Positions 13,628 through 58,605 of a DNA stretch of 64,000 nucleotides are shown in pieces (the stretch's first letter is position 1; each line of letters starts with the position of its first letter). The notes under the pieces were generated by a model. That model ran no database searches. It had not been told where the DNA came from and worked only from the letters and a program-made list of their open reading frames with translations. The position numbers and the translations under genes were made by a program. The DNA lies in contig NZ_LMJT01000001.1 in NCBI RefSeq assembly GCF_001429395.1, positions 65,335 to 129,334 of the forward strand. The letters are read 5' to 3'. Origin of the DNA: Allobosea sp. Root381 (GTDB lineage: Bacteria; Pseudomonadota; Alphaproteobacteria; Rhizobiales; Beijerinckiaceae).

Positions 13628-13652
13628 GGCCGTGGAGAGCGGCCAAAGCCGC

Positions 13653-14021: not shown

Positions 14022-14163
14022 GGGCTTGGCTCGCTAGGGTGAGGCCGCGACAAGGCTGCGCTTGACCTTGGGCGCAGCAATGCCAATGTCCTGCCTTGAT
14101 GGCAATGGCGCCGGCCCGTTTTAAGGGCGCGGCGTTCAGCGTGACCGGGACGGAATTCAGGCC

Positions 14164-15219: not shown

Positions 15220-15334
15220 GCGCTCCTGCCCCTCGGTTCGACATGGGGACGATGGCTCGGTGTCGAAGCACGTGTCTTGACGCGCTTCCGCAAAGCCTTA
15301 ACGGTTCCTTTATGGCAAGCGTTGCGGGCGTTCG

Positions 15335-17372: not shown

Positions 17373-17411
17373 CCGGCGCAGGCGGCCCATCGGCAGGATG
17401 AAGAGCAAGAG

Positions 17412-18176: not shown

Positions 18177-18185
18177 GGCCGGCCC

Positions 18186-19952: not shown

Positions 19953-20160
19953 CAGCCCACCCTATTACGTTTGGTCGCCTCTTTATGGTTCGACATCGTT
20001 AAGAAAAGCTGACCACTGCGCCGCAAGCAGGAGGACCGGGCGCCGGCAGGCATGGACCCACGCAGGGAGCGCCTGTAAGGCTCCGGAACGAGGGCGCGCG
20101 ATACCCGCCGCGAGCCTTTGGCCCAATCCTCCCAGCCGTGACCCGCCCAGCGAGGCTGCC

Positions 20161-21300: not shown

Positions 21301-21320
21301 AGCCCTGACCGGAAGACGCC

Positions 21321-23407: not shown

Positions 23408-23437
23408 CGCGAACCGACCGCGCCTTGCGGCAGGCCT

Positions 23438-24304
23438 TCAGTCCTCGAGGCGAACGAGCAGGCTCGACGTGTCCCAGCGCTTGCCACCGAGCTTCTGGAC
23501 CTCGGCATAGAACTGGTCGACCAGCGCGGTGACGGGCAGTTGCGCGCCGTTGCTGCGAGCCTCGTCCAGCACGATGGCGAGGTCCTTGCGCATCCAGTCG
23601 ACGGCGAAGCCATAGTCGAACTTCCCGACATTCATGGTCTTGCCGCGGTTCTCCATCTGCCAGGAACCGGCCGCGCCCTTCGAGATCACCTCCAGCATCG
23701 CCTCGACATCGAGCCCGGAACGCTTGGCGAAATGGATGCCCTCGGAGAGCGCCTGGACGAGGCCAGCGATGCAGATCTGGTTGACCATCTTGGTGAGCTG
23801 GCCGGAGCCGGCCGGGCCCATCAGCTTGCACATGCGGGCGTAAGCCGCGATCACCGGCTCGGCTCGGGCGTAGTCCGCCTGCCCGCCGCCGCACATCACG
23901 GTCAGCACGCCGTTCTCGGCGCCGGCCTGCCCGCCCGAGACGGGCGCATCGACGAAGCCGAAGCCGGCGGCCTTCGCGGCTGCATCCAGCTCGCGGGCGA
24001 CATTGGCGGAAGCCGTGGTGTGATCGACGAAGAGCGCGCCCTTGGCCATGCCGGCGAAAGCGCCCTGCTCGCCCAGCGTCACCGAGCGCAGATCGTCGTC
24101 ATTGCCGACGCAGGCGAAGACGATCTCCTGGCCCTGCGCCGCATCGGCCGGGGTCGGCGCCGAGATGCCGGCATGCTGGGAGACCCAGGCCTGCGCCTTC
24201 GTCGGGTTGCGGTTGTAGACCGTGACCTCGTGGCCCTTGGCCTTGAGATGCCCCGCCATGGGATAGCCCATGACACCCAGACCAATGAAGGCGACCTTTG
24301 CCAT
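23438..24304 (-). CDS. 3-hydroxyisobutyrate dehydrogenase family NAD(P)-dependent reductase
   Basis: 288 aa beta-hydroxyacid dehydrogenase. The Rossmann motif is VAFIGLGVMGYPMAGHLKAKG (4-24), substrate-binding DAPVSGGQAGAENG lies near 120-133, and the catalytic Lys is in SGQLTKMVNQ near 168-177. Candidates are 3-hydroxyisobutyrate dehydrogenase, tartronate semialdehyde reductase or a succinic-semialdehyde reductase. The upstream in-frame extension is dropped because the domain begins at the ATG at 24304. Confidence 0.87.
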   Translation of the reverse strand: MAKVAFIGLGVMGYPMAGHLKAKGHEVTVYNRNPTKAQAWVSQHAGISAPTPADAAQGQEIVFACVGNDDDLRSVTLGEQGAFAGMAKGALFVDHTTASANVARELDAAAKAAGFGFVDAPVSGGQAGAENGVLTVMCGGGQADYARAEPVIAAYARMCKLMGPAGSGQLTKMVNQICIAGLVQALSEGIHFAKRSGLDVEAMLEVISKGAAGSWQMENRGKTMNVGKFDYGFAVDWMRKDLAIVLDEARSNGAQLPVTALVDQFYAEVQKLGGKRWDTSSLLVRLED

Positions 24305-24430
24305 GCGATGCTCTCCCGCTTGCGCTGCCTGGCCGATGTAGCCTGCCATCGCCCGGGTGGAAAGCCACGCCGCCTCTCTGCGTCGCCGCAACGATTGCCG
24401 GCCGGGGCCCAAGAGACTACGTCCTGTACC

Positions 24431-25180
24431 ATGACGATATCGAACGAAGACGAACTGGCGGGCTTGCGCGAGACGGGGCGCATCGTCGCCAACGCGCTCG
24501 CGGCGATGGCCAAGGCGCTGGAGCCCGGCATCACCACGGCGGAACTCGACGACATCGGCCGCGCGCTGCTCGAACGCGAGGGCGCGCAGCCAGCGCCCGA
24601 GCTGGCCTATGGCTTTCCCGGCGCGACCTGCATCAGCGTGAACGAGGAGATCGCCCACGGCATTCCCGGCCCGCGCCGGATCGAGGCCGGCGACCTCGTC
24701 AATATCGACGTCTCCGCCGAGAAGAACGGCTTCTTCGCCGATACCGGCGCGTCCTTCGGCGTTCCTCCGGTCTCGGCCAGGACGGCGCGGCTATGCCGCG
24801 ACGGCCGCCGCGCGCTCTTCGCCGGGCTCGGCCAGGTGGGAGCCGACAGGCCGATGGCCGGTATCGGGCAGGCGATCGGCCGCTTCGCGGCCAAGAACGG
24901 CTATACGCTCGTGCGCAATCTCGCGAGCCACGGCGTCGGCCGCTCGCTCCATGAGGAGCCGACCGAGCTCGCGACATGGCCGGACCGCGGCGAGCGTCGC
25001 CGGATGGAGAAGGGACTGGTGTTCACCGTGGAGCCGTTCCTCTCGCTCGGCGCGGCCTGGGCAGAGGACGGCGACGACCCGTGGACGCTCTACAGCGAGC
25101 CGCGTGCGCCCACCGTGCAATACGAGCACACCGTGGTCGCAACCGCGCAGGGGCCGCTGATCCTGACCCTGCCGGGCTGA
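24431..25180 (+). CDS. map: Type I methionine aminopeptidase
   Basis: Removes the initiator methionine from nascent proteins; 249 aa. The five metal ligands are visible: two Asp spaced as in NIDVSAEKNGFFADTG, His in ASHGVGRSLHEEP, Glu in FTVEPFL and Glu in QYEHTVVA. HGIPGPR carries the substrate-side His. It is monocistronic and far from ribosomal genes, so it may be an accessory copy beside a housekeeping one elsewhere. Confidence 0.92.
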   Translation: MTISNEDELAGLRETGRIVANALAAMAKALEPGITTAELDDIGRALLEREGAQPAPELAYGFPGATCISVNEEIAHGIPGPRRIEAGDLVNIDVSAEKNGFFADTGASFGVPPVSARTARLCRDGRRALFAGLGQVGADRPMAGIGQAIGRFAAKNGYTLVRNLASHGVGRSLHEEPTELATWPDRGERRRMEKGLVFTVEPFLSLGAAWAEDGDDPWTLYSEPRAPTVQYEHTVVATAQGPLILTLPG

Positions 25181-29929: not shown

Positions 29930-31174
<1,245 letters not shown>

Positions 31175-45032: not shown

Positions 45033-45057
45033 GGAACCCCTGCACACGGCAATCGTT
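45033..45057 (+). promoter_or_regulatory. EcfG-type general stress promoter of opgG
   Basis: GGAAC (45033-45037), 16 nt, CGTT (45054-45057): an exact match to the alphaproteobacterial EcfG consensus, 55 bp upstream of the opgG start codon. Such promoters serve the PhyR-NepR-EcfG stress response. Confidence 0.65.
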
Positions 45058-45111
45058 CTAAATTGGCTTGGCCAGCCGCTGGCCTCGCCATTTCGGAACA
45101 GGAGCAAGCTA

Positions 45112-46719
45112 TTGCCGCAACCTTCCCGTCGCCTGATCCTGGCTCTCTTGTCGAGCGCGTGCGCGCTGGCTTCGCCCTCTGTACGGGCTCAGCCGAAGCC
45201 GGGAGCCAGTGCGGGGTTCAGCTACGACGACGTTATCCAGCAGGCGACGGCATTGGCCAAGCAGCCCTTCGATGAGGAAAGCGCAAAGATTCCGGCCGAG
45301 TTATCCAAGCTGACATATGACAGCTATCGCGAGATCCGGTTCCGACGCGACAAGGCTCTCTGGCGCGATGGAGAGTCGGATTTCCGGCTGCTGCCATTCC
45401 ATCTGGGCTTCCTTCACAACCGGCCGGTCCAGATCCACAACATCAATCACGGCAACGCGATCCCGATCCCGTTCACGACCAGCCTGTTCGAATACGGGAA
45501 GGTCCCCGTGCCCAAGGGCCTCTCGCCGTCGCTTGGTTTCGCGGGCTTTGCAGTCACGACAACCCTCAATGACCCGAAGGTGCAGGACGAGGTCATCTCG
45601 TTTCTGGGGGCGAGCTATTTCCGGATCATTGGAAGAGGACATCGCTACGGCCTGTCGGCACGCTCGCTGGCATTGGACGTCGGAGGCGAGCAGCCGGAGG
45701 AGTTTCCGTTCATGCGGGCGCTCTGGGTAGAGGAACCATCTCGGGACACCTCTCAGCTCATCATCTATGCGCTGCTCGATTCCCCGTCCGTCGCGGGGGC
45801 CTATCGGTTCGTCGTCAACCCGGGACAGGAAACCTATGTGGATGTCACGGCAACGATCATCCCGCGCAAGGAGATCCCTCGTCTCGGCATCGCACCGCTG
45901 ACCTCGATGTTCCAGGCCGGTGAAGGTGACCTCAGCCAGCGAACCGATTTCCGGCCTGAAATTCACGACTCCGATGGGCTGATGATGCAGTCCGGCAATG
46001 GCGAATGGATCTGGCGTCCCATTCGCAACCCGAAGGCCCTGCGCATCTCGAGCTTCGGCGACAAGAACCCGCGCGGCTTCGGCCTGATGCAGCGAGACCG
46101 CGACTTCGGGAGCTACCAGGATCTCGAGGCCCGATACGACGCTCGCCCGGGCTATTGGGTAGAGCCTCAGGGCGAGTGGGGAGAAGGTCGGGTCGACCTC
46201 ATCGAAATTCCAACCGACAACGAAGCGTTCGACAACGTCGTGGCCTGCTGGACGCCCAACAAGCCTTTGGCCGCGGGTGAAGCTACGGAGATTGGGTATC
46301 GCATCTCGTCCATATCGACGACCTGGCATCTGCATCCCTATGCGCAAGTCCAGAACTCCTTCAACGGCTCCGACATCGAAGATGGGATCGTCGACGGGCA
46401 CGGCACGAAGCGTTTCATCGTGGACTTCGCGGGCGGCGATCTGGCCTATTACCAGAACGATCCGGAGCGCCTTGAGCTCGTAGTGACGACGACCGGCGGC
46501 TCTATCACGACCAGGATTCTGACGTTTAACGCGAAGACGAAGGGCGTCAGGGCGATCGTCGACGCGACGCTTCCCGATGGCCAATCGGCCGAACTCAGAA
46601 TGTTCATCAGGGCGCGGACGCGAACATTGAGCGAGACGTGGACCGCCACCTGGTCGGTTCCGCAGGGCCCATCGCCATCGACCCCTCCGAGGAACGAACC
46701 CTCCCCCAAGCGACCCTGA
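45112..46719 (+). CDS. opgG: Periplasmic glucan biosynthesis protein OpgG/MdoG
   Basis: Periplasmic protein needed for osmoregulated beta-glucan backbone synthesis and release; 535 aa. Start TTG at 45112, supported by GGAG 8-11 nt upstream. The signal (SRRLILALLSSACALASPSVRAQ) is followed by the MdoG core: FSYDDVIQQATALAKQPF, YDSYREIRFRRDKALW, FLGASYFRIIGRGHRYGLSARSLALD, and WVEPQGEWGEGRVDLIEIP. OpgG normally works with the glucosyltransferase OpgH, usually the next gene; here the next gene faces the other way and no opgH is in the window. Confidence 0.92.
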   Translation: MPQPSRRLILALLSSACALASPSVRAQPKPGASAGFSYDDVIQQATALAKQPFDEESAKIPAELSKLTYDSYREIRFRRDKALWRDGESDFRLLPFHLGFLHNRPVQIHNINHGNAIPIPFTTSLFEYGKVPVPKGLSPSLGFAGFAVTTTLNDPKVQDEVISFLGASYFRIIGRGHRYGLSARSLALDVGGEQPEEFPFMRALWVEEPSRDTSQLIIYALLDSPSVAGAYRFVVNPGQETYVDVTATIIPRKEIPRLGIAPLTSMFQAGEGDLSQRTDFRPEIHDSDGLMMQSGNGEWIWRPIRNPKALRISSFGDKNPRGFGLMQRDRDFGSYQDLEARYDARPGYWVEPQGEWGEGRVDLIEIPTDNEAFDNVVACWTPNKPLAAGEATEIGYRISSISTTWHLHPYAQVQNSFNGSDIEDGIVDGHGTKRFIVDFAGGDLAYYQNDPERLELVVTTTGGSITTRILTFNAKTKGVRAIVDATLPDGQSAELRMFIRARTRTLSETWTATWSVPQGPSPSTPPRNEPSPKRP

Positions 46720-46720
46720 T

Positions 46721-47077
46721 CTATCCGGGATCACGTATCATTGCGGTTGCCCGCGCTGCGCCGAGGGCTTCCGCTAACCCGCACGCCGCATCCTCCAGGG
46801 CGTGGTGACCTGCAACGGCCTGCACCATCGCCAGCGTGTTCTTCATGCGCTGCAGGATCGCCTTGTTAAGGACGTCCTGCTGCTCCGTGGCCTTGTCGCG
46901 CTCACGGAGCGCCCTACGCAGTTCCAACTGGCGCTCGACCTGACGGGCAAGGATGCGGAGCGTCTTGTCCTGGACGGCAGTCAGCGGCCGCGCCTTGAAG
47001 TCGAGTACGCAGACCGTGCCGATTGGATGGCCGTCCGCCGGGCCTGATATGCCATTGGACCGAATGGTGACGGCGGG
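46721..47077 (-). pseudogene. Remnant of a GAF-HWE/HisKA_2 sensor kinase
   Basis: About 118 codons immediately after, and in the same frame as, the LOV kinase stop codon. They begin inside a GAF domain (GISGPADGHPIGTVCVLDFKARPL), pass through a coiled coil, and end in a kinase dimerisation helix (NKAILQRMKNTLAMVQAVAG) that has lost its acceptor His (QRMKN instead of HRVKN), then stop. No start codon with ribosome binding site, N-terminus or ATPase domain remains. It looks like an internal piece of a deleted kinase gene. Confidence 0.75.
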
Positions 47078-48607
47078 TCAGTCGACGAATGAGCCGATGT
47101 TGCGCCGGAAGATTTCTTCATCGTCCGGCGTGCCGCTGATCTTGTCCTGATCGGGCAGCGGCGCGAGGATGGTGAACACGAGGCCGGACGGCAGGTACTG
47201 AATCCTTCCGCGACCGTTCAGTTCGGCCGCCAGGACCTTCTCGATCAGGCGCGTGCCAAATCCACTGCGCGACGGCCGGCCGGTCACGGCGGGGCCACCG
47301 ACCTCCTGCCAACGGAACTCGATCATCTGATCGGCGCCGTGCCTCGAGGCCAGCCAATCAATCGTCACATGTCCCGACGGCGTTGACAGGGCGCCGTACT
47401 TCACCGCGTTCGTGCAGAGTTCATGCAGGGCCAGCACCATGGCCATGGCTGCACGAGGCCCGAGACTGACCCGCGGGCCACCAACCTGGAAGCGCTTGGA
47501 ACCGGGCGCGTCGAACGATTCGAGGGCGATGGCCACGCTTTCCGCGATCGTCGCGCTCTGCCATTGCTCGCGCGTCAGCAGGTCGTGCGCTGAAGCAAGC
47601 GATTGCATCCGCGCGGTCAGCACCTCAGTCGCCTGCTTCAGCGACGTCGCGTTGCGCATCGTCTGCGTTGCGATGGACTGGATCGTCGCCATCGAGTTCT
47701 TGACGCGATGCTTCAGCTCCGCGGTCAGAAGCAAGCGCTGTTCCTCGTTTCGGCGGTTCTCAGTCATGTCGAGCGTGACGCCCGACATGCTGATCGGCCT
47801 GTCGTCGGCGCCGTAATGCGGACAACCTCGCGCCATGATCCAGCGGCTCTCGCCGGACGGCGTGACGATCCGGTATTCATGTTCGTAGTCGGTGTGGCCC
47901 TCGACCGCCTCTTTCACCGAAATCTGCACCCCTTCGCGCTCGGTCGGAACGATCGACGCGACGAGATCTTCATAGGTGAACGGCTCGCCCGGGCTCCTGC
48001 CGAAGTTTTGCTTGCAGATGTCCGAGCAAGCCAGGCGCATGTCGACGAGATCGAGCGTCCATGACCCGAGCCTCGCCGCTCGCATCGTGAAACGGAGCTG
48101 CTCCTCCGACTGGCGGAGCTCCCGGGTCCGGCGCTCGACCTCCTTCTCCAGCTTGTCGTGCTCCTTTTGAAGGCGGACCAATCGGTCGCGCTCGAGGGTG
48201 ACGTCGAACTGAGAGGCGAAGAAGTAGGAGAGGTGTCCGTTTTCATCGTAGACGGGCGAAATCAGCACGCGATTGTGGAACGGCGTGCCGTCCTTCCTGT
48301 GATTGATGAGTTCCATCTCGATCTGCGCTCGCCGGGCGATCGAGTCCCTAAGCCTATTCACGTCGGCCGGGTCCGTCTTGGGACCCTGGAGAAAGCGGCA
48401 GTTGTGTCCGACAACTTCCTCGCGTGAGTAGCCCGTCAGCCGCAGGAACGCGTCGTTCGCGAAGACGATCGGATTGTCGGGAAGGTTGGGGTCCGTAATC
48501 AGCATAGGCATCCGGGTTGCGCGAACCGCGGCTGCGAACGGATCGGTAGACTTCTGGACCTTGATGATCTCAGCGTCGATACGGTCGTGCTCGGTCTCGA
48601 CGCTCAT
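47078..48607 (-). CDS. LOV-PAS HWE-family histidine kinase (blue-light sensor candidate)
   Basis: 509 aa, no transmembrane helix. The N-terminal LOV domain (about 25-140) has the flavin-cysteinyl motif GHNCRFLQ with Cys70, and the strand with Gln133 (YFFASQFDVT). A coiled coil (145-172) and a PAS_3 domain (175-285; RIVTPSGESRWIMARG) follow. The kinase core has LTAELKHRVKNSMATIQSIA (acceptor His300), an N box ALHELCTNAVKYGAL, and a W-x-E motif (FRWQEVGG), which places it in the HWE group. Related LOV-HWE kinases include Brucella LOV-HK and tie light to the general stress response. AGGA lies just upstream of the ATG. Confidence 0.92.
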   Translation of the reverse strand: MSVETEHDRIDAEIIKVQKSTDPFAAAVRATRMPMLITDPNLPDNPIVFANDAFLRLTGYSREEVVGHNCRFLQGPKTDPADVNRLRDSIARRAQIEMELINHRKDGTPFHNRVLISPVYDENGHLSYFFASQFDVTLERDRLVRLQKEHDKLEKEVERRTRELRQSEEQLRFTMRAARLGSWTLDLVDMRLACSDICKQNFGRSPGEPFTYEDLVASIVPTEREGVQISVKEAVEGHTDYEHEYRIVTPSGESRWIMARGCPHYGADDRPISMSGVTLDMTENRRNEEQRLLLTAELKHRVKNSMATIQSIATQTMRNATSLKQATEVLTARMQSLASAHDLLTREQWQSATIAESVAIALESFDAPGSKRFQVGGPRVSLGPRAAMAMVLALHELCTNAVKYGALSTPSGHVTIDWLASRHGADQMIEFRWQEVGGPAVTGRPSRSGFGTRLIEKVLAAELNGRGRIQYLPSGLVFTILAPLPDQDKISGTPDDEEIFRRNIGSFVD

Positions 48608-48911
48608 GCAATCCTAAAATCCTAAAATGCTCCTCGGCCTAAAGTAATGGCGGGACATATCGTTTGGTTCCTTTATTCGCGTGAAGCGAGGTCGATGGCA
48701 GGCCATGATCTAAGGGAAGGAAATCTGCCGGCCGCTCGCGGTCGTTCATGACGGCAAGCTCTACCGCCTCTTGCAGCCGAACACCCCGTTCGACTCGGAC
48801 ATTCTCCTTCGCAGGTGAATCTGCCGGCCCTGAGCGAGTTCCCAAAATGCGGGAACGATGATGTCGCGAGCAGGTTAGCAATTCAGGATCGAACGACGCG
48901 AGGGCCACCCG
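48608..48911. other. Divergent control region between LOV kinase and stress protein
   Basis: 304 bp. Contains the stress-protein promoter (48852-48876) and, at 48838-48856, GTTCCC-N7-GGGAAC, two -35-like boxes facing away from each other. A weaker minus-strand candidate for the kinase is GGAAC (48671-48667), 17 nt, CATT (48649-48646). ATCCTAAA is repeated directly before the kinase start. A start-less open stretch at 48714-48818 (ends PNTPFDSDILLRR) may be a gene tail fragment. Confidence 0.5.
48852..48876 (+). promoter_or_regulatory. EcfG-type promoter of the glycine-rich stress protein
   Basis: GGAAC (48852-48856), 16 nt, GGTT (48873-48876): one base from the EcfG consensus (GGAAC-N16/17-CGTT), 35 bp before the start codon of the downstream gene. 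That gene encodes a protein class known from stress regulons, which supports the call. Confidence 0.6.
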
Positions 48912-49430
48912 ATGACCGATTCACCGCAGCTCACAACCATTACGCGCTCGTATGGATCTTTCGAAGACGCACGCAACGTCATGGCGCGCTTGGCCGAGGC
49001 TGGGATTTCGTCCGACAGGATTGGGCTGCTCGGGCAGCAAGCCGTCGGAGATGAAAATGCCGCTGTCGGCGCGGCGGCGGGCGCGGCAACCGGCGCAGCC
49101 ACTGGCCTCGTTCTCGGGATCGGCGCACTGTTGGTGCCAGGTATAGGCCCGATTTTCGCCGCTGGGTGGTTCCTCTCTGGCGCTGCTGCGGGTGCCTTGG
49201 CTGGCGGGGTACTCGGCGCTCTGATTGACGCGGATGTACCAAAGCAAGAGGCGGAGAGTTTTGCCGCCGACCACGAACTCGGCCGGTCCGTTCTTTCAGT
49301 TCGCGCGCAAGGTCCGGAGATCGATCGGGTGATCGCCATTATGGATGCAGGGATGCCAGTCCGAGCGCCCCTCACGACCGACGAACCGTCGCAGCCGGCT
49401 GCCGAGAACCTGTCGAAGGCCGTCTCTTGA
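48912..49430 (+). CDS. General stress protein 17M-like, glycine-zipper membrane protein
   Basis: 172 aa. An N-terminal ferredoxin-like YflT domain (SYGSFEDARNVMARLAEAGISSDRIGLLG, residues 13-41) precedes two glycine-zipper hydrophobic stretches (AAAGAATGAATGLVLGIGALLVPG and AAGWFLSGAAAGALAGGVLGALI, about 54-112). The C-terminus SVRAQGPEIDRVIAIMDAG completes the domain. Homologues are induced by general stress or low temperature and probably sit at the membrane. It has its own EcfG-like promoter. Confidence 0.8.
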   Translation: MTDSPQLTTITRSYGSFEDARNVMARLAEAGISSDRIGLLGQQAVGDENAAVGAAAGAATGAATGLVLGIGALLVPGIGPIFAAGWFLSGAAAGALAGGVLGALIDADVPKQEAESFAADHELGRSVLSVRAQGPEIDRVIAIMDAGMPVRAPLTTDEPSQPAAENLSKAVS

Positions 49431-49521
49431 GCCGCCGAGCCAGCATCACGGGGCGACAAGGCGCCGCGGGAAGAAACAACTGCCGCTCATCTCCGTTCAG
49501 GTACAAACGGAGGGCCTCGAA

Positions 49522-49668
49522 ATGGTAGTGGCGGCAACGGTTTTTGTAACGGGCCTGACGGGAGTGACCACGGGGTTCCTGCCCGCGACAGGGATGGTAG
49601 CGGAGATCGTCTGGCTTACGATCGCATCTTCGGGCGCGGTCACCGTCGCCGGGCTTGAGCGCGAGTAG
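49522..49668 (+). CDS. Small hydrophobic protein
   Basis: 48 aa, nearly all hydrophobic and glycine-rich: VVAATVFVTGLTGVTTGFLP, then AEIVWLTIASSGAVTVAGLE. It is preceded by a GGAGG ribosome binding site 8 nt upstream (49509-49513), which decides the ATG at 49522. Probably a one- or two-span membrane peptide cotranscribed with the stress protein 91 bp upstream. Not recognised. Confidence 0.45.
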   Translation: MVVAATVFVTGLTGVTTGFLPATGMVAEIVWLTIASSGAVTVAGLERE

Positions 49669-50034
49669 CGGGCTGTGGAGCAACTGCACGGCAGACCAGT
49701 CGCGCAGGGAGCATAAATCAACCCAATCTGAAACACTAATGGGCTGCCACATCGTTCGCGGGCGGAGCAGTTAGCTGGTCACCAAATCAAGAATTTAAAT
49801 TCCATTCCGCTCACTGAATAGCGCGCACCCCTTATTTAGGTCATATCTTGAGCGATCGGCCGGGAATACGTAGCTCCAAAAACACTAAGCGCAGACGGCC
49901 CGAACGAGATGACCGACATATCTGAATCTGGGACACAAAATTCTTAGGAAACCAGGAACAATCCTGATGATGCTGACGTTGTTCTGTGATGTCTCGAGAC
50001 AGCCATCGAATACGTTGGTAGAGCTGAGCGAGGG
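49669..50034. other. Intergenic region before ctaG
   Basis: 366 bp, AT-rich for this genome, with no credible gene on either strand. It contains the exact EcfG-type promoter motif at 49955-49980. No terminator was found after the small hydrophobic gene. Confidence 0.55.
49955..49980 (+). promoter_or_regulatory. EcfG-type promoter of the second oxidase cluster
   Basis: GGAAC (49955-49959), 17 nt, CGTT (49977-49980), an exact consensus match, 54-66 bp upstream of the two candidate ctaG starts. It would place the CtaG-CopD and possibly the cox genes under the general stress sigma factor. Confidence 0.65.
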
Positions 50035-50760
50035 TTGAGGCGACACATGGAGGCGGTTCCATATTGTGGGCGAGCGCCCGTCCCCTCCGAAATCTGGACG
50101 AGCTGGAACACGGATCCGCTGTTGATCGCAGCACTCGCCTGCGCTTGTGCGACGGCAGTGCTTATGCCGCGCTCCGTTCGCCGGACATATTGGATCGCCG
50201 GTTGTTCCGTCGTGGCGATCGTATTCGTTTCTCCGCTCTGCGCCCTCGGATCGGCGCTTTTCGCCGCTCGTTCTTTCCATCATCTGCTGCTGGCCGCCGT
50301 GGCTGCTCCGCTGCTAGCCGCGGCCTTTCCGGCAAGAGGCCGTGCCTACGGGCTTGCGGCTTTGCTGACTTCTTCGGGCGTGCTCTGGTTGTGGCACTGG
50401 CCGGCCCTCTACACGCTCGCGTACGAAAATCATGCTGCATACTGGGCTCTGCAGATCGGTCTCCTGGCAAGCTTCGTCTGGTTCTGGCGAGCGGTTCTGT
50501 CGGCTGTCGCCTCCCCGCTCTCCGCAATCATGCTCATTGGTGCGGGCGCGGGGCAAATGGGTCTCCTCGCCGCGCTGCTGACCTTCGCCCCACGCCCGCT
50601 CTATGAGGTTCACGGCCTTGCATCGCTGTCCTGGGGGCTGGATCCGCTCAGTGACCAGCAGTTGGGTGGGCTGCTGATGTGGGTGCCCGCCTTCTTCGTC
50701 TACGGCCTCTTCGCCATCCTCGCGGCGCGCCGGGGTTTCGCCAGAGCGTCCCTGACGTGA
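50035..50760 (+). CDS. Cytochrome c oxidase assembly protein, caa3-type CtaG
   Basis: Up to 241 aa with seven predicted helices. Conserved histidines appear in HHLLLAAVAAPLLAAAFP near 82-99 and in WLWHWPALYTLAYENHAAYW near 116-135, features of the caa3_CtaG (COX assembly) family thought to handle copper. The TTG at 50035 or the ATG at 50047 may be the start; neither has a strong ribosome binding site. It overlaps the CopD-like gene by 4 bp (GTGA) and heads the second oxidase cluster. Confidence 0.85.
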   Translation: MRRHMEAVPYCGRAPVPSEIWTSWNTDPLLIAALACACATAVLMPRSVRRTYWIAGCSVVAIVFVSPLCALGSALFAARSFHHLLLAAVAAPLLAAAFPARGRAYGLAALLTSSGVLWLWHWPALYTLAYENHAAYWALQIGLLASFVWFWRAVLSAVASPLSAIMLIGAGAGQMGLLAALLTFAPRPLYEVHGLASLSWGLDPLSDQQLGGLLMWVPAFFVYGLFAILAARRGFARASLT

Positions 50761-51251
50761 TCGTCGGCCTGAAATTCATTCATATCGCCGGCCTGGCGAC
50801 GTGGTGCGCGGGCTTGCTGATCCTGCCGCTCCTGCTCGCGCGCGCCGACAACCCGGTGCGCGCCGGCGAGGCGTCGCGGATGCGCATCTTCGCGCATTAC
50901 GCCTATAATTTCGGTGTCAGCCCGGCTGCCGTCGTGACGACCGTCGCGGGCGGCGCCCTGCTCTTCGCTCGATGGGTGTTCGAGCCCTGGATGTTCGCCA
51001 AGCTCGGCCTGATCGGCATGATGGTGGTGCTGCATACCTATATCGGCCACTGCGTCGCCCGCCTCGGAGAGGAGGGCTATGTCCGCCCGCTGGTGCCGCC
51101 CGCCGTGCTGGTCGCAGCCGGCCTGTCGACCATGGCCGCGATCCTGTTCGTCGTCCTCGCCAAACCCGCGCTCGGGCCCGAGATCATGCCCGACTGGCTC
51201 CGCGTGCCGGTCGGCGGTCAGCTCGCGCTACCGCCCGTGCCCAGCCGATAA
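50757..51251 (+). CDS. CopD/HemJ-like four-helix membrane protein
   Basis: 164 aa, four helices. LKFIHIAGLATWCAGLLILPLLLA near 5-28 resembles HemJ (protoporphyrinogen oxidase) and CopD, with a His in helix 1; another His pair occurs in VLHTYIGHCVARL near 90-102. It might bind heme or copper and help supply the oxidase. GTG start at 50757 overlaps the ctaG stop. Its last 34 bp overlap the 3' end of the convergent DUF2231 gene. Confidence 0.75.
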   Translation: MIVGLKFIHIAGLATWCAGLLILPLLLARADNPVRAGEASRMRIFAHYAYNFGVSPAAVVTTVAGGALLFARWVFEPWMFAKLGLIGMMVVLHTYIGHCVARLGEEGYVRPLVPPAVLVAAGLSTMAAILFVVLAKPALGPEIMPDWLRVPVGGQLALPPVPSR

Positions 51252-51736
51252 TCGAAGACGAGCTTCCCGCCATGCCAGCCCGTCAGCGCCGTGAAACCGA
51301 CACAGAGGCCCGAAAGCAGAATGCCGAACGGCAGGACAGCGTCCTCGTAGCCCGACAGGCGCAGCCCGAAATTGGCGCCGAGCATGCTCAGCAGCGCGAC
51401 CGCGATCACGAAATGCGTCCAGCTCGCGGGGCGCGAGCGGATTCCGGGAACCAGCAGCAGTTCCACCGTGCCTGTCAGCCCGGCGAGCAGGCCCATCAGG
51501 AAGCCGGTGCCGATCGCCCACAGGCCGACGCGCGCCCAGAAGCCATCGCCCGTCCACCAATAGAGCAGGTCGGCGCCGAGCGTGCAGACCGTCAGCGCGA
51601 TCGGGAACGCGACCAGCATGGCGTGAAGCGGATGGCCGGCGATCGCGATCCGCGTGTCGGTGTCGTCGAAGACCTTCGGCGCATGGAGCGGATCGAGGTT
51701 CGGGCCGGCGTCTTCGCCGGAGTCGGCACGGCTCAT
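51218..51736 (-). CDS. DUF2231 membrane protein
   Basis: 172 aa with four helices. IAGHPLHAMLVAFPIALTVCTLGADLLYWW near 34-63 is the DUF2231 signature, with paired His in the first helix; WTHFVIAVALLSMLG and LTGWHGGKLVFDYRLG follow. Members occur beside cox clusters and may bind heme. It is the only minus-strand gene in the cluster. Its 5' end overlaps the predicted coxB start by 54 bp, which suggests one of the two starts is mis-set. Confidence 0.82.
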   Translation of the reverse strand: MSRADSGEDAGPNLDPLHAPKVFDDTDTRIAIAGHPLHAMLVAFPIALTVCTLGADLLYWWTGDGFWARVGLWAIGTGFLMGLLAGLTGTVELLLVPGIRSRPASWTHFVIAVALLSMLGANFGLRLSGYEDAVLPFGILLSGLCVGFTALTGWHGGKLVFDYRLGTGGSAS

Positions 51737-52399
51737 CGGCTGCTGCCCATCGGGTTCTTCGCGGTGCTTGGCGGTTGCAGCGGTCCGCTTTCGGCCCTGG
51801 CTCCGGCAGGACCTGCTGCGGACAGCATCGTCACGCTGTTCCTCGTGCTGCTCGGGCTGTCGGCGCTGTCTTTCATCGTCATCTTCGGCATCTTCATCCT
51901 GGCCTGGCGCCGCGACCGGAGCCGCAAGGTCCGGCTGCGGCTGTTCCTGATCGGCGGCGGCCTCGTCTTCCCGCTCGTCCTGCTCACGATCGCCACCGTC
52001 TACGGGGTGGCGCTCGGGGAGCGCATCACCGGCGCCCGCACCTCCCCTTCCCTCACCGTCGAGGCGCGGGCGGAGCGCTGGCACTGGCAGTTTACCCGCC
52101 AGACGGGGCGAGGTTCCGTGACGCGGCCGAATGTCCTGCACATTCCCGCCGGCCGGACCGTCGAGGTGATCGTCACCAGCAGCGACGTGATCCACAGCTT
52201 CTGGGTGCCGCGCCTGGCCGGCAAGATCGATGCGATTCCCGGCATGCGCAACCGCATCCTGCTCCGGGCCGACATCCCGGGACGATACAACGGCGTCTGC
52301 GCCGAGTTCTGCGGCACCGGCCATACCGCCATGAACTTCTCCGTCGTCGCGCATGATGCCGATGGCTGGGCCGCCCACGACAAAGATGTTCTGCCATGA
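51683..52399 (+). CDS. coxB: Cytochrome c oxidase subunit II
   Basis: 238 aa. A lipoprotein-like signal ends LGGC (Cys32), then two helices (47-75 and 87-112) and a cupredoxin domain. The CuA site is complete: His171 (DVIHSFWVP), Cys206, Glu208 and Cys210 (CAEFC), His214 and Met217. Unlike CyoA it can therefore accept electrons from cytochrome c. The ATG at 51683 is the only ATG that leaves a full signal peptide but has a weak ribosome binding site. Overlaps the next gene by 4 bp. Confidence 0.88.
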   Translation: MERIEVRAGVFAGVGTAHRLLPIGFFAVLGGCSGPLSALAPAGPAADSIVTLFLVLLGLSALSFIVIFGIFILAWRRDRSRKVRLRLFLIGGGLVFPLVLLTIATVYGVALGERITGARTSPSLTVEARAERWHWQFTRQTGRGSVTRPNVLHIPAGRTVEVIVTSSDVIHSFWVPRLAGKIDAIPGMRNRILLRADIPGRYNGVCAEFCGTGHTAMNFSVVAHDADGWAAHDKDVLP

Positions 52400-54897
52400 A
52401 GGCGCTGAGACTGCATGCCGAGCTCGACGCGGTCTGGCGCACGCCCCGGACCTGGAAAGGCATCCTGACCAACGTCAACCACAGCGATCTCGGCCTGCGC
52501 TTCATGATCGCGGCAACTGTGTACTTCGCCATCGGCGGCGTGCTCGCCATGCTGATCCGGGCGCAGCTGGCGACGCCGCGCTCGGCCTTCGTCGGGCCCG
52601 AGATCTTCAATCAGCTGTTCACCATGCATGGCAGCCTGATGATGTTCATGTTCGCGATCCCCTTCTTCGAGGGGCTCGCCATGTACATGCTGCCGAAGCT
52701 GCTCGGCTCGCGCGACCTGGCCTTTCCGCGTCTCTCGGCCTTCGGCTGGTGGTGCTATCTCTTCGGCGGCTTCATCCTGATCGTCGCGATGGTGCTCGGG
52801 CTCGCGCCCGATGGCGGCTGGTTCATGTATACGCCGCTGGCATCGAAGACCTATACGCCCGGCATCAACGCCGATGTCTGGCTGCTGGGGATCACCTTCG
52901 TCGAGATCTCGGCGGTCTGCGCCTCGATCGAGCTGACCGTCAGCATCCTGAAGCTGCGCGCGCCGGGGATGTCGCTCGGGCGCATGCCGATCTTCGCCTG
53001 GTACATCCTCGTCACGGCGCTGATGATGGTGATCGGCTTTCCGCCGCTGATCCTCGCCTCGACCCTGCTCGAGGTCGAGCGCGCCTTCGGTTGGCCGTTC
53101 TTCGACCCGACACGCGGCGGGCACCCGCTGCTCTGGCAGCACCTGTTCTGGCTGTTCGGCCACCCCGAGGTCTACATCATCTTCCTGCCCGCGGCCGGGG
53201 TGGTCTCGACCGTGCTGCCCGTCATGGTCCGGCACCCGCTGATCGGCTATGGCTGGGTCGTCGGCTCGATCCTGGCGCTCGGCTTCTTCAGCTTCGGCCT
53301 GTGGGTCCACCACATGTTCGCGACGGGCATCCCTCACCTGGCGCTCGCCTTCTTCTCGGCCGCCTCGGCGCTGGTCGCGGTGCCGACCGTGGTGCAGATC
53401 TTCGCCTGGCTCGCGACGATGTGGGCTGGGCGGCCGCAGATGCGCCTGCCGATGCTCTACATCTCGGGCTTCTTCTTCATCTTCCTGCTCGGCGGGCTGA
53501 CCGGCGTGATGCTCGCCATGGTGCCATTCAACTGGCAGGTCCACGACACCGCCTTCGTGACCGCCCATCTCCACTATGTCCTGATCGGTGGCTTCATCTT
53601 CCCGATGATGGCAGGCCTCTATTACTGGCTGCCGCGGCTGACGGGGCGGATGTCGCATCCCCTGCTCGGACGCCTCGGCTTCTGGCTGACCTTCGTCGGC
53701 TTCAACCTGACCTTCCTGGTGATGCATCTCACCGGCCTGCTCGGCATGCCGCGCCGCGTCTACACCTACGATGCCGGCATGGGCTGGGACTGGCCGAACC
53801 TGATCTCGTCGCTCGGCTCCTTCGTCCTGACCATCGGCTTCGCCGCGGCCCTGATCGACATCGTGCTGGCCGTGGCCTTCGGGCGTCGCTCGCCGCGCAA
53901 TCCCTGGCGTGCGTCCACCCTCGAATGGGCGCTGCCGACCCCGGTGCCGAGCTACAATCTCGCGAGCCTGCCGCAGGTCGAGACGTCCGACCCGCTCGAC
54001 CGGCGCCACGATCTTGCCGCGGCGCTCGCGGTCGGCGACGGCTATCTCGGGCGCGTCCGGTCCGGCCTGCGCGAGACGACCGGCGTCGCGATTGCGTCGG
54101 GGCGGTTGAGCGAGATCGTCGTGCTGCCGGGCAATTCCTGGCTGCCGATCGTCACCGCCGCCGTGACCGGCTGCTTCTTCCTGGCGATGCTGTTCGGGTT
54201 CTACTGGCTCGCTCCGGTCGCGCTGATCGCTGTGATCGTCCTGGCCTGGCACTGGGCCGGCTCGCTCGGCAGCCGCGCCGATCTGGGCCCCATCGATGCC
54301 GGGCGCGGCGAGCGGGCTCCCGCCCATCACGAGATGAAGGAAGCGCCCGGCTGGTGGGGCAGCGTCTTCGCGCTGACGGCGGATGCGACCTTCTTCATGT
54401 CGCTGCTGTTCGGCTACGCCTTCCTGGCGACGGTCGCGCCGGGCTGGCCACCACCTTCCCTCGTCGAGCCCTCGCTGCTGGCAGGCGGAACGCTCGTCGC
54501 CGCCACCCTCCTCGCATGGTGGGCGGAGCGCGCCGGCTTCGCCGCCATGCAGGCCGGGATGGCGCGACGCGCAAGGCTCGGCCTCGGGATAGCGCTGGCC
54601 GCAGTCACGGTAGCGCTGGCGGCCTTGATCGCATTCGGCTGGCTTGGACTGCCCTCCCCCCGGATCCATGCCTATGGCGCCGTCGTCTGGGTGCTCGTTG
54701 CCTATGGCGGCGTCCACCTCGTCATCGCTTTGGTGATGCTCGCCTTCGTGTGGCGTCGCCTGCTTCAGGGCTATGTGTCGCCGGCGCGCCTGCTGGAGCC
54801 GCGCATCGCGAACCTCTGGCTGCGCTACGCAGTCGTCGCCAATCTGATCATGCTGGTCGTCGTCAGCCTGCCCGGGATCGCGTCATGGCGCTGGTGA
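52396..54897 (+). CDS. Fused cytochrome c oxidase subunits I and III
   Basis: 833 aa, against about 530-560 for subunit I alone. Residues 1-560 are CoxI: heme a His78 (FTMHGSLMM), WLFGHPEVY (His256, Glu258, Tyr260), CuB His305-His306 (WVHHMFATG) and the heme pair His391/His393 (TAHLHYV). After a linker, about 575-833 has a subunit III fold (helices around 600-640 and GSVFALTADATFFMSLLFGYAFLA near 655-678). CoxI-III fusions are known for some bacterial caa3/aa3 oxidases. It overlaps coxB and the small downstream gene. Confidence 0.92.
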   Translation: MKALRLHAELDAVWRTPRTWKGILTNVNHSDLGLRFMIAATVYFAIGGVLAMLIRAQLATPRSAFVGPEIFNQLFTMHGSLMMFMFAIPFFEGLAMYMLPKLLGSRDLAFPRLSAFGWWCYLFGGFILIVAMVLGLAPDGGWFMYTPLASKTYTPGINADVWLLGITFVEISAVCASIELTVSILKLRAPGMSLGRMPIFAWYILVTALMMVIGFPPLILASTLLEVERAFGWPFFDPTRGGHPLLWQHLFWLFGHPEVYIIFLPAAGVVSTVLPVMVRHPLIGYGWVVGSILALGFFSFGLWVHHMFATGIPHLALAFFSAASALVAVPTVVQIFAWLATMWAGRPQMRLPMLYISGFFFIFLLGGLTGVMLAMVPFNWQVHDTAFVTAHLHYVLIGGFIFPMMAGLYYWLPRLTGRMSHPLLGRLGFWLTFVGFNLTFLVMHLTGLLGMPRRVYTYDAGMGWDWPNLISSLGSFVLTIGFAAALIDIVLAVAFGRRSPRNPWRASTLEWALPTPVPSYNLASLPQVETSDPLDRRHDLAAALAVGDGYLGRVRSGLRETTGVAIASGRLSEIVVLPGNSWLPIVTAAVTGCFFLAMLFGFYWLAPVALIAVIVLAWHWAGSLGSRADLGPIDAGRGERAPAHHEMKEAPGWWGSVFALTADATFFMSLLFGYAFLATVAPGWPPPSLVEPSLLAGGTLVAATLLAWWAERAGFAAMQAGMARRARLGLGIALAAVTVALAALIAFGWLGLPSPRIHAYGAVVWVLVAYGGVHLVIALVMLAFVWRRLLQGYVSPARLLEPRIANLWLRYAVVANLIMLVVVSLPGIASWRW

Positions 54898-55211
54898 TGC
54901 GCACCCTCGGCGGCCTACTGCTCTGGGCAGCGGGCTTCTCGCTGCTCTATGCGCTCCACGGGCTCGGCTGCGGGCTGGGCTGGGGCAGCGGGGAGCCGCC
55001 GGGATATTTCACCGCGCTCAATCTTGGTCTCCTATTCATCTGGTTGCTCCTGCTCGGGAGTGCGGGATGGATCGTCCGCATGGCGACGCGAGCCTATTCC
55101 CGCGACGGCGACACCGTGCTGAGCCGGACGCAGCTGGTCTCGGCCTGGGCGGGTCTCGCCGGCCTGTTCTTCACCGGAGCGCCGGTCCTGCTGTCGGCCC
55201 ATTGCGTCTAG
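54885..55211 (+). CDS. Small membrane protein of the cox cluster
   Basis: 108 aa with about three helices: LGGLLLWAAGFSLLYALHGLGCGLGW, ALNLGLLFIWLLLLGSAGWIV and SAWAGLAGLFFTGAPVLLSA. Its ATG lies 13 bp inside the 3' end of the fused oxidase gene, so it is translated with it. Probably a fourth subunit or assembly factor; the family is not recognised beyond its location. Confidence 0.7.
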   Translation: MALVMRTLGGLLLWAAGFSLLYALHGLGCGLGWGSGEPPGYFTALNLGLLFIWLLLLGSAGWIVRMATRAYSRDGDTVLSRTQLVSAWAGLAGLFFTGAPVLLSAHCV

Positions 55212-55491
55212 CGGCGCCAGCCGGCGCAATAGACGCTGGCATCGCGGGGCACAGCGATCTGCTCGTCAGCGCGTCGAAGAGCGATCGGTACCGCGAATAT
55301 TACCAAGATTAGAAGCCGCGCAGATTTCAATTAATTTCTATGTGCGCTCGCGCTGATCCAACGGCGCATCGTCAATTCGCGCTCTCATCATCAACTATGC
55401 ATCGCGACACTTTCGCCACACCAGGAACTTTATAGGTCCAGGCGGCTTGTTTCGGAGAGAGAACGCTCACGCAGAACGAGGGAGAAACGCC

Positions 55492-57774
55492 ATGGCCCGC
55501 CGATCGCGGCACGAAGAGTACGACCAGCCGACCGGGGGCTGGGGCTCCGTCGCATCGCTGGTCAAGCATTCCACCGAGCAGCATGCCGTCGGCAGCGTCA
55601 CCGGGCTGCTGCGCCATCACAACAAGGTCGGCGGCTACATGTGCACCAGCTGTGCCTGGGCCAAGCCGGGCGAGCCGCATGCGGCGGAGTTTTGCGAGAA
55701 CGGCGCCAAGGCGACCTTCTGGGACCTCACCTCCAAGCGCACCGGCCCGGACTTCTTCGCCCAGCACACCGTGTCCGAACTGATGAACTGGTCGGATTTC
55801 GAACTCGAGAACCAGGGCCGCCTGACGCACCCGATGCGATACGACGCCTCCAGCGACAAATATGTCGAGGTGGCCTGGGAGGAAGCGTTCGCGGATATCG
55901 GAACGAAGCTCAAGGGCTACGAACCGAAACGCACCGTATTCTACGCTTCGGGCCGCGCCTCGCTCGAAACCTCCTATATGTACGCGCTTTTCGCCCGTCT
56001 CTACGGGCACAACAACCTGCCCGACAGCTCGAATATGTGCCACGAGACGACGTCCGTGGCCTTGCCGCAGAGCATCGGCACGCCGGTCGGCACGGTGCTG
56101 CTCGAGGACTTCGACAAGACGGATTGCATATTCGCGTTCGGGCAGAACGTCGGGACGAACTCGCCGCGGCTGCTGCACAGCCTGCAGGAAGCGCGAGAGC
56201 GCGACGTGCCGATCGTCGTGTTCAACCCGTTGCGCGAGCGCGGCTGGGAAGAATTCGTCAATCCCCAGCGGGTCGGCGAGATGCTGACCAACAACCCGAC
56301 GCAGATCGCGACACAGTATTATCAGGTGCGCGCCGGCGGCGACATCGCGGCGATGATCGGGATCGGCAAGGCGCTGCTCGCCCTTGACGACGCCGCCCGC
56401 AGCGAAGGCGGCGAGCGCGTGCTCGATGCGGCCTTCATCGCCGAGCATACCGAGGGCTTCGCGGCGCTGGAGACGAAGCTGCGTGGAACGAGCTGGGCAG
56501 AGATCACCGATGAGTCCGGCCTGACTCGCGCGGCGATCGAGGCTGCCGCCCAAACCTTCGCCAACGCGACCTCGATCATCGCCGTCTACGGAATGGGCCT
56601 GACCCAGCATCGCCGCGGCGTCGACAACGTCCAGATGCTGGTCAACCTGCTGCTGATGCGCGGGCAGATCGGCAATCCGGGCGCTGGCATCTGCCCCGTG
56701 CGAGGGCACTCCAACGTCCAGGGTCAGCGCACGGTCGGAATCGCCGAGAAGGTCGAGCTCGTACCGCTCGACAAACTGGCCGAGCAGTTCGGCTTCGAGC
56801 CGCCACAGGAGGACGGCATGGCGACCGTCGAAGCCTGCGAGGCGATCGTCGCCGGCAAGGTCCAGGCGTTCCTGGGGCTCGGCGGCAACTTCATCCGCGC
56901 GATCCCGGAACGCGAGCTGATGGAGGAGAAGTGGCGGGGGCTCGACCTCTCCGTCCAGATCGCGACCAAACTCAACAGGTCGCATCTGATCACGGGCGCG
57001 ACCACCTATCTCCTCCCCACACTGGTCCGGTCCGAGATCGACGAACAGGCCGGCGGCGAGCAGATCGTGACCATGGAGGATTCCACCACCTGCATCCATG
57101 CCTCGCGCGGCAAATGGGCTCCGGCGAGCAAAACCTTGCTTTCCGAACCGAGGATCGTCGCCGAACTGGCCAAGGCCGCACTCACGCCGAACCCGAAGGT
57201 GCCATGGGACGAATGGGTCGCGGATTACGCCATGGTGCGGGATGCGATCGAGCAGACCTACCCGGACCAGTTCCGCGACTTCAACCAGCGCCTCGACACG
57301 CCGGGCGGTTTCCCGCGCCCTGTCGCCGCGCGGGAGCGCAAATGGGAGACCGACACAGGAAAGGCCAACTTCAAGGTGCCGAAGGCGTTGTCCGCGAGCT
57401 TCGATGACGGCCGCGACGCCAACGTGCTGCGGCTGATCACGCTGCGCTCCAACGACCAGTTCAACACCACGGTATACGGCTATGCGGACCGGTTGCGCGG
57501 AATCCACGGCTCGCGCCTGATCGTGATGATGAACCGCGACGACCGGATCCGCTTCGGCATCCCCGACAAGGGCAAGGCACGCCTTACCACCGCGGTGAAC
57601 GACGGCATCGTGCGGAGCATCGGCGGGCTCGAGGTCATCGACTACGACATCCCGCCAGGAACCTGCGCAGCCTATTTCCCGGAGTGCAACGTCCTGATTC
57701 CGCTCTGGCAGTTCGCCGAGGAGAGCAAGACTCCCGCAGCGAAGTCGGTGCCGGTCACCGTCACCGCCGAATGA
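55492..57774 (+). CDS. FdhF/YdeP-family molybdopterin oxidoreductase
   Basis: 760 aa, starting at ATG 55492. The N-terminus has Cys51-x2-Cys54 ... Cys68 (YMCTSCAWAKPGEP, FCENG), three of the four Cys expected for a formate dehydrogenase cluster; no fourth is obvious. The probable Mo ligand is Cys183 in SSNMCHETTSVAL. GAGICPVRGHSNVQGQRTVG near 398-417 is a strong YdeP/FdhF signature. The C-terminal cap contains NDQFNTTVYG. Likely substrate formate, since an FNT channel and FdhD follow, though YdeP homologues act in acid resistance with unknown substrate. Confidence 0.87.
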   Translation: MARRSRHEEYDQPTGGWGSVASLVKHSTEQHAVGSVTGLLRHHNKVGGYMCTSCAWAKPGEPHAAEFCENGAKATFWDLTSKRTGPDFFAQHTVSELMNWSDFELENQGRLTHPMRYDASSDKYVEVAWEEAFADIGTKLKGYEPKRTVFYASGRASLETSYMYALFARLYGHNNLPDSSNMCHETTSVALPQSIGTPVGTVLLEDFDKTDCIFAFGQNVGTNSPRLLHSLQEARERDVPIVVFNPLRERGWEEFVNPQRVGEMLTNNPTQIATQYYQVRAGGDIAAMIGIGKALLALDDAARSEGGERVLDAAFIAEHTEGFAALETKLRGTSWAEITDESGLTRAAIEAAAQTFANATSIIAVYGMGLTQHRRGVDNVQMLVNLLLMRGQIGNPGAGICPVRGHSNVQGQRTVGIAEKVELVPLDKLAEQFGFEPPQEDGMATVEACEAIVAGKVQAFLGLGGNFIRAIPERELMEEKWRGLDLSVQIATKLNRSHLITGATTYLLPTLVRSEIDEQAGGEQIVTMEDSTTCIHASRGKWAPASKTLLSEPRIVAELAKAALTPNPKVPWDEWVADYAMVRDAIEQTYPDQFRDFNQRLDTPGGFPRPVAARERKWETDTGKANFKVPKALSASFDDGRDANVLRLITLRSNDQFNTTVYGYADRLRGIHGSRLIVMMNRDDRIRFGIPDKGKARLTTAVNDGIVRSIGGLEVIDYDIPPGTCAAYFPECNVLIPLWQFAEESKTPAAKSVPVTVTAE

Positions 57775-57789
57775 CCGCGGAGTTATGTA

Positions 57790-58605
57790 ATGTCTGACCG
57801 GGCAACGATGCCGGAAGCGGCCGAGCTGCAAAAGACGGTCTTCCTCGCGCTGCGGGAAAAGGCGACTCTGCCGACGTCTTCCATGTTCCTGTTAGGCATG
57901 CTCGCCGGCATCTACATCGGTATCGGCGGATTGTTCGCGACCGTGGCGCTGACCGGAGCCGATGCGCTACCATATGGTGTTGGCCAAGTGCTGGCGGGGC
58001 TGGTTTTCGCGACCGGCCTCGGCCTGGTGATCATTGCCGGGGCGGAGCTTTTCACCGGAAACACGATGATGACCGGGGCAGTCCTGGCGCGAAAAATCAC
58101 CGCGTTCCAGGCGGTGAAAGCGTTGGCGGTCGTCTATGCCGCCAATTTCGTCGGTTCCCTGCTTCTTGCAGGGCTTGTGCTAGGTGCCGGCGTGCATGGC
58201 GCGAACGACGGTGCGTTCGGCCGCGCGGCTCTAGAACTCGGCCTCACCAAGACTGAGGGCAGCTTTATGAACATACTGGCCAGCGGCATCCTGGCCAATA
58301 TGCTGGTCTGCCTTGCCGTCTGGTCGGCCTATGCAGGCCAAACCACCAGCCAGAAGCTCGCTGGACTGACGCTGCCGGTCGCGGCCTTCGTGGCGGCAGG
58401 GCTCGAGCACTCGGTCGCGAACATGTATCTTTTGCCATATGCCCTCATGGTGCAGGGCGTAACCGAAGGCGCGGCCGGCCAACTGACCTTTGCTGGCATC
58501 CTCGGAAACCTGGTTCCGGCGACGATCGGCAACATCATGGGCGGCGCATTCGTCGCCGTTGCCTATTGGACGGTGTACGGAGCCACCAAGCACAAGGGTG
58601 GTTGA
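57790..58605 (+). CDS. Formate/nitrite channel (FNT family)
   Basis: 271 aa, six helices. FNT motifs: GAELFTGNTMMTGAVLARKIT near 84-104, ILANMLVCLAVWSAY near 167-181, and GLEHSVANMYLLPYAL near 204-219 with the central His207. It moves formate, nitrite or similar monovalent anions across the inner membrane. It lies 15 bp after the YdeP-type gene with a GCGGAG ribosome binding site, so the pair is cotranscribed. Confidence 0.92.
   Translation: MSDRATMPEAAELQKTVFLALREKATLPTSSMFLLGMLAGIYIGIGGLFATVALTGADALPYGVGQVLAGLVFATGLGLVIIAGAELFTGNTMMTGAVLARKITAFQAVKALAVVYAANFVGSLLLAGLVLGAGVHGANDGAFGRAALELGLTKTEGSFMNILASGILANMLVCLAVWSAYAGQTTSQKLAGLTLPVAAFVAAGLEHSVANMYLLPYALMVQGVTEGAAGQLTFAGILGNLVPATIGNIMGGAFVAVAYWTVYGATKHKGG

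Follow-up and report, generated by a model that had tools for sequence, protein, structure and literature searches.

Do three neighboring sequences that resemble promoters of the general stress sigma factor EcfG mark a stress island, or do they belong to a scattered regulon and only happen to lie close together? The question is raised by a 64,000-nucleotide stretch of Allobosea sp. Root381 (positions 65,335 to 129,334 of contig NZ_LMJT01000001.1, here C1; hereafter, the window), in which such sequences lie upstream of opgG, of a gene for a 17M-like protein, and of ctaG (Table 1). An earlier note, made from the letters alone, had located them and assigned them to these genes, and we found the matches exactly there. 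All three have a GGAAC −35 element and lie on the same strand; the spacers are 16, 16, and 17 bp (opgG, 17M-like, and ctaG, respectively), and the −10 element is CGTT at the opgG and ctaG sites and GGTT at the 17M-like site. From the end of the −10 element to the favored start codon we measured 54, 35, and 66 bp in the same order, in agreement with the 35–66 bp given in the note. Its tally of two exact matches and one near match describes these three sites correctly but leaves unmentioned two further exact matches within the window, at 10673-10697(-) and 29957-29982(-). Neither was accepted as a promoter: both are non-coding according to our gene caller, yet the next called start on the same strand is 5.2 kb away from the former and 1.1 kb from the latter. 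By chance, 0.50 exact matches per window are expected from dinucleotide shuffles, and none of 100 shuffles reached at least four. On the evidence below, the three sites are very probably ordinary EcfG promoters of a dispersed regulon, neighbors by coincidence.

An EcfG cascade and a motif concentrated ahead of genes

The genome has the canonical EcfG–NepR–PhyR locus. The single NepR match in the whole genome is clustered with a HisKA_2/HWE kinase, a gene for an extracytoplasmic function (ECF) sigma factor (ecfG), and a divergent phyR. The PhyR protein contains PhyR_sigma2, PhyR_sigma-like, and receiver domains, and the ecfG product contains ECF sigma domains. An exact motif (C9:11305-11329) lies about 100 bp upstream of the favored nepR start. 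Elsewhere, ten proteins encoded downstream of exact sites outside C1 were scanned for domains, which returned two DUF892 proteins, CsbD, DUF2171, a Mn-catalase, DUF6894, DUF3309, GlgB, and a GlgE-domain protein, as well as a tenth product with a weak PepSY_2 match below the cut-off. Products of this kind are the usual flavor of a general stress regulon.

The arrangement resembles the EcfG (ECF15) regulons of Methylobacterium extorquens, Rhizobium etli, Sphingomonas melonis, and Sphingopyxis granuli, which share the GGAAC −35, the 16–17 bp spacer, and the C/GGTT −10, are likewise dispersed, and have nepR-ecfG behind an EcfG-type promoter with phyR divergent. Passages of the published work give the consensus as GAAC-N16,17-C/GGTT for M. 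extorquens (PMC4814048) and the motif as GGAAC-N16-CGTT for R. etli (PMC3892343). The candidate targets may differ: ‘cytochrome’ is absent from the main texts on the EcfG regulons of these four species, whose regulon tables are mostly in supplements, and ‘glucan’ appears in those main texts only as glucanotransferase, in one of them. Three of the texts were also checked for ‘oxidase’ and two for ‘ctaG’, and neither word was present.

Across the genome (5.68 Mb in 45 contigs, 67.6% G+C) the excess of the motif is modest, with 113 exact matches vs 74 for the reversed pattern, and 85 matches to the GGTT form vs 50. The decisive evidence that the motif exceeds chance is its position relative to genes. 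We analyzed C1, the contig that contains the window, as a whole (774,907 bp, 13.6% of the genome), and counted a match as promoter-placed if it was non-coding and a called gene began no more than 250 bp downstream. Nine of the 16 exact matches on C1 are promoter-placed, vs a mean of 0.96 and a maximum of 4 for 150 letter-permuted motifs, a roughly tenfold enrichment; with a limit of 400 bp the count is 10 of 16 (control mean 0.97, maximum 6, 29 permutations). The promoter-placed exact sites on C1 have spacings of 16 (8 sites) and 17 (2 sites), and none was found at spacings of 13–15 or 18–20.

All 12 single-change variants of the −10 element were compared on C1 with 29 permuted controls. GGTT is promoter-placed in 7 of 10 cases (control mean 0.76, maximum 3), about a ninefold enrichment. 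AGTT (2 of 5, control 0.14) and CGTA (3 of 6, control 0.41) also lie above all 29 controls, which no other variant does. TGTT is not clearly enriched on C1 (2 of 3 promoter-placed vs 0.48, a value that two of the 29 controls reach), nor is CATT, whose 2 promoter-placed matches are equaled or exceeded by 7 of the 29. Because the GGTT class is enriched, the 17M-like site fits the published C/GGTT consensus; its description as ‘one-off’ is right in that it has one mismatch to CGTT, but GGTT is a normal variant of the consensus. Of the 97 exact matches outside C1, the 84 that were listed were placed, with 37 in promoter positions, 26 in coding sequence, and 21 in other non-coding sequence; the permuted controls for promoter placement cover C1. 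As a separate observation, identical 25-base GGAAC-N16-GGTT sequences occur at C27:24870 and C34:252422 and are perhaps part of a repeat.

The motif upstream of related genes

For relatives of the three genes, the motif class comprised GGAAC-N16/17 followed by CGTT, GGTT, AGTT, TGTT, or CGTA, and was counted within 250 bp upstream unless another distance is given. There are four opgG copies in the genome, and only the window copy has a motif within 300 bp upstream. The motif class is present at all 21 of the nearest opgG loci (69–85% identical; 16 from Bosea and 5 titled at higher rank, with two genomes represented twice), compared to a permuted control mean of 0.52; the −10 elements are CGTT at 4 loci, GGTT at 5, and TGTT at 12. 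With CGTT and GGTT only, the count is 9 of 21 (control 0.28). At 14 of the 21 loci the motif, at −65 to −84, lines up with the one in the window (−79), and by eye the DNA around it can hardly be aligned among relatives. Our literature search found no link between EcfG and opgG.

This ctaG is rare in the genus (4 of 67 genomes at E ≤ 1e-20, host included). We collected 25 relatives, 3 in the 66 other genomes of the genus and 22 in 296 other genomes of the order, and found the motif class upstream of 13 (control mean 0.31): 7 exact, of which three come from one genus, 3 GGTT, and 3 CGTA. Removal of near-identical upstream regions gives 12 of 22, and CGTT and GGTT only give 10 of 25 (control 0.24). 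The highest permuted −35 controls, 10 for opgG and 5 for ctaG, were both CGGAA, which overlaps the true site by a one-base shift; the next highest were 2 and 1. Since the −10 class was picked after earlier ctaG upstream regions had been seen, a further draw across the class matters. It yielded 8 loci in 7 of 384 other genomes, all outside the order and one with only 150 bp upstream, and the motif class was found at 4 of these 8, CGTT or GGTT at 2, and the exact motif at 1 (control means 0.03, maximum 1).

The gene order behind ctaG also recurs. Of the 25 ctaG neighborhoods, 20 were fetched, and in 18 of them ctaG is followed by the HemJ-like gene, coxB, and coxA, with an oppositely oriented DUF2231 gene; one of these 18 is cut off inside coxA by the end of its contig, and in one the DUF2231 gene lies behind the oxidase. 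The motif class precedes ctaG in 11 of the 18, spanning six family labels of the order. One motif-bearing relative (L164, genome G277) lacks cox genes next to ctaG, an argument against tying the motif strictly to them.

The 17M-like family presents a different picture. It has 124 matches at E ≤ 1e-10 in 46 of the 67 genus genomes, host included, and we tested 29 loci from other genomes, one per genome. Within 1500 bp upstream, 24 of the 29 have the motif class (control mean 1.31, maximum 4) and 17 the exact motif (control 0.34). All 24 have one site at −365 to −430, and in 21 a gene 70–90% identical to the host's PepSY-like leader lies between this site and the 17M gene. The host's leader gene itself (C3:12155-12451) precedes a 17M paralogue and follows an exact motif at a distance of 47 bp. 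The remaining three of the 24, which rank with the nearest relatives of the window copy, have no match to the leader; in two of them another reading frame, of 77 residues, is seen. In the window copy itself, no leader gene separates the GGTT-type site from the gene. A reading of the 17M site as a chance match, suggested by the lack of a motif within 320 bp in the 29 relatives, was revised, as most of them have the motif farther upstream, at about 400 bp.

Several observations weigh against our interpretation. The five-variant −10 class was chosen after inspection of the sequences upstream of opgG and of the first ctaG genes, and the class-wide ctaG draw is its only out-of-sample test. Twelve of the 21 nearest opgG loci have TGTT, a class not clearly enriched on C1, and at 7 of the 21 the motif lies elsewhere, at −113 to −141. 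Among 27 distant opgG loci (Methylobacterium and others, with about 295 bp upstream searched), the motif class occurs at one (L055, exact; control mean 0.21, maximum 2), and a narrower test of about 145 bp before the start found it at none of 13. It is missing from 12 of the 25 ctaG relatives. None of the 29 17M relatives has it within 250 bp upstream, so that the case for the 17M site rests on the enrichment of its class and on the family's promoters farther upstream. Finally, the gene caller was home-made and crude: it missed the 17M gene and nepR, and the starts it chose for opgG and ctaG lie too far downstream.

With these points weighed, the EcfG-type identity that the earlier note proposed for the promoters is supported by the EcfG–NepR–PhyR locus, the positional enrichment, the stress-type genes elsewhere, and the relatives of opgG and ctaG.

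Site spacing and the alternatives to coincidence

It is unlikely that the region is a true stress island, in which shared EcfG control gathered opgG, the oxidase, and the genes between them, and the LOV-HWE kinase gives PhyR a light input. Such an island would explain why three same-strand sites fall within 4,948 bp with the kinase between them, and a LOV kinase does act on PhyR in Brucella (PMC4438053). The sites on C1 are also mildly clustered overall, which speaks against pure coincidence: exact non-coding sites form 4 adjacent pairs within 5 kb vs 1.08 expected (P 0.0115), three of them at 406.8–412.2 kb, and [CG]GTT sites form 4 triples within 5 kb vs 0.34 expected. The density of the opgG–ctaG region is nevertheless unexceptional. 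C1 has 20 non-coding GGAAC-N16/17-[CG]GTT sites; when that number was distributed at random over its non-coding positions, 27% of 3,000 trials had at least three inside some 5 kb stretch (P = 0.27).

Other places are as dense or denser, on C1 as well as in stretches of C7, C9, and C24. Three places on C1 have three sites in 5 kb, namely the opgG–ctaG region, 406,857-408,422, and 590,565-594,563. The second is a tighter cluster than the opgG–ctaG one and consists of a tandem array of three small genes that resemble one another and whose products we read as secreted; an exact motif precedes each gene by 35 bp. On contig C7, positions 13141-24832 hold eight GGAAC-N16/17-[CG]GTT matches in about 12 kb, with up to 4 in 5 kb, and five matches crowd into 5 kb of a C24 stretch, where they occupy four places, one sequence matching on both strands; the counts for C7, C9, and C24 include all matches, coding or not, and these stretches were picked for holding exact matches. 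The C7 stretch is a better stress-island candidate than the opgG–ctaG region. It carries CsbD, DUF2171, and a 17M-like operon.

Nor is the unit conserved. No 17M-like gene or ctaG was found beside opgG in 48 opgG loci (flanks of up to 7 kb, some cut by contig ends), where the only matches to neighbors from the window were distant kinase matches (33–35%) in four. Likewise, the 20 ctaG neighborhoods yielded neither opgG nor 17M; two of them have distant kinase matches (24–31%). The kinase's own upstream match ends in CATT, a class not clearly enriched. We did not accept this match as the kinase promoter; the motif class occurs in one of seven relatives, at another place. The earlier note had argued for an island from the number of matches expected under equal base frequencies. 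Given P = 0.27, the equally dense places, and the lack of synteny, that argument is not the right test: set against a genome-specific background, the three sites are spaced in no unusual way, and the proposed island is not supported.

That some other ECF sigma factor with a similar −35 preference reads these sites in place of EcfG is very unlikely. Four more places in the genome match EcfG weakly (30–39% identity, one with an internal stop) and could encode such a factor, but only one EcfG-like gene adjoins nepR and phyR, nepR has the same motif upstream, and the motif equals the consensus published for EcfG in passages of PMC3892343 and PMC4814048. Least probable of all is that GGAAC-N-CGTT is simply frequent enough in a 67.6% G+C genome for the three sites to be accidental. 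Called coding sequence does contain 26 of the 84 listed exact matches that were placed outside C1, and two of the window's four have no gene just downstream. But exact matches are about tenfold enriched at promoter positions, and the motif is found ahead of opgG and ctaG in relatives even though the DNA on either side, by eye, hardly aligns; chance is thus contradicted for those two genes and has a low probability for the 17M site.

Genes of the region and a proposed stress response

Table 1. Features of the opgG to formate/nitrite transporter region (window coordinates).
Feature	Position	Strand	Evidence and remarks
EcfG-type promoter of opgG, predicted	45033-45057	+	GGAAC-N16-CGTT, exact match
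opgG/mdoG, periplasmic glucan biosynthesis protein	45112..46719	+	Pfam MdoG 6e-180; TTG start likely
LOV/PAS-PAS-HWE histidine kinase	47078..48607	-	Pfam PAS and HWE_HK; divergent from 17M-like gene
GGAAC-N17-CATT before LOV kinase	48646..48671	-	weak match, not accepted as promoter
EcfG-type promoter of 17M-like gene, predicted	48852-48876	+	GGAAC-N16-GGTT, one mismatch (GGTT for CGTT)
17M/DUF1269-like general stress protein	48912..49430	+	weak Pfam DUF1269, 20.6 bits (cut-off 26.9)
EcfG-type promoter of ctaG, predicted	49955-49980	+	GGAAC-N17-CGTT, exact match
ctaG, caa3-type oxidase assembly factor	50047..50760	+	Pfam Caa3_CtaG 1.7e-26; ATG preferred, TTG 50035 alternative
HemJ/UPF0093-like membrane protein	50757..51251	+	Pfam UPF0093 1.6e-10 on 50700-51248; start from gene caller
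DUF2231 membrane protein	51218..51691	-	Pfam DUF2231 8.8e-38; opposite strand within cluster
coxB, cytochrome oxidase subunit II	51632..52399	+	Pfam COX2 7.9e-17
coxA, cytochrome oxidase subunit I	52396..54897	+	NCBIfam CtaD_CoxA on residues 24-528 of 833
Small protein without Pfam match, molybdopterin oxidoreductase, formate/nitrite transporter	54885..58605	+	Pfam for last two

In the oxidase cluster, we read the C-terminal extension of coxA as subunit III-like. The small protein, molybdopterin oxidoreductase, and formate/nitrite transporter genes that follow keep their order in three Bosea genomes (G020, G047, and G049). The LOV-PAS-HWE kinase might feed a light signal to PhyR; it matches the NCBIfam blue-light histidine kinase model below its cut-off, and 7 of the 66 other genomes of the genus have a relative at E ≤ 1e-80. 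The genome has another copy of a LOV-HWE kinase (C26:1954-3479), which is seemingly broken, being in two pieces, one with an internal stop.

If the cascade works here as elsewhere, stress would cause a sensor kinase to phosphorylate PhyR, and phosphorylated PhyR would bind NepR and so set EcfG free. Free EcfG would then bind GGAAC and C/GGTT elements 16–17 bp apart and start transcription at the opgG, 17M-like, and ctaG-cox promoters along with dozens of others. Stress induction of the three genes, and an operon that extends from ctaG into the oxidase genes, would be expected from the sites and gene order. Going by what is known of their families, opgG would support osmotic and envelope adaptation through periplasmic glucan, the 17M protein would act as a stress protein, and ctaG would head a terminal oxidase cluster.

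Tentatively, and with slightly more doubt than confidence, we propose the joint reading that several families of the order, and some genomes beyond it, have ctaG-hemJ-like-coxB-coxA as a recurrent and possibly ancestral part of the EcfG regulon, and that the general stress response switches in a dedicated alternative oxidase, accompanied in Bosea by the molybdopterin oxidoreductase and the formate/nitrite transporter. A comparable case, judged by description only, is the second cytochrome oxidase coxPONM of Rhizobium etli, an alternative terminal oxidase that is raised in stationary phase in an rsh-dependent manner, according to passages of PMC3188799; those on coxPONM make no statement of EcfG control. 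Neither ctaG nor a cytochrome oxidase was found as an EcfG target in passages of PMC3892343, PMC6599016, PMC7083833, PMC4814048, PMC8092242, and PMC6180224, for which search terms varied by paper and regulon tables are mostly supplementary, and a literature search on PhyR and ctaG returned nothing on topic among the matches listed.

These results also indicate that chance expectations under equal base frequencies are a poor guide, and that the spacing of such sites has to be judged against a genome-specific background. In a full-text search, the literature that names EcfG with Bosea concerned duckweed microbiomes only. The textbook stress promoter of the Alphaproteobacteria can be read from sequence in this genus, and two well-supported candidate targets, opgG for the envelope and ctaG-cox for respiration, are added. 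Stress control of an alternative terminal oxidase is now testable in several genera.

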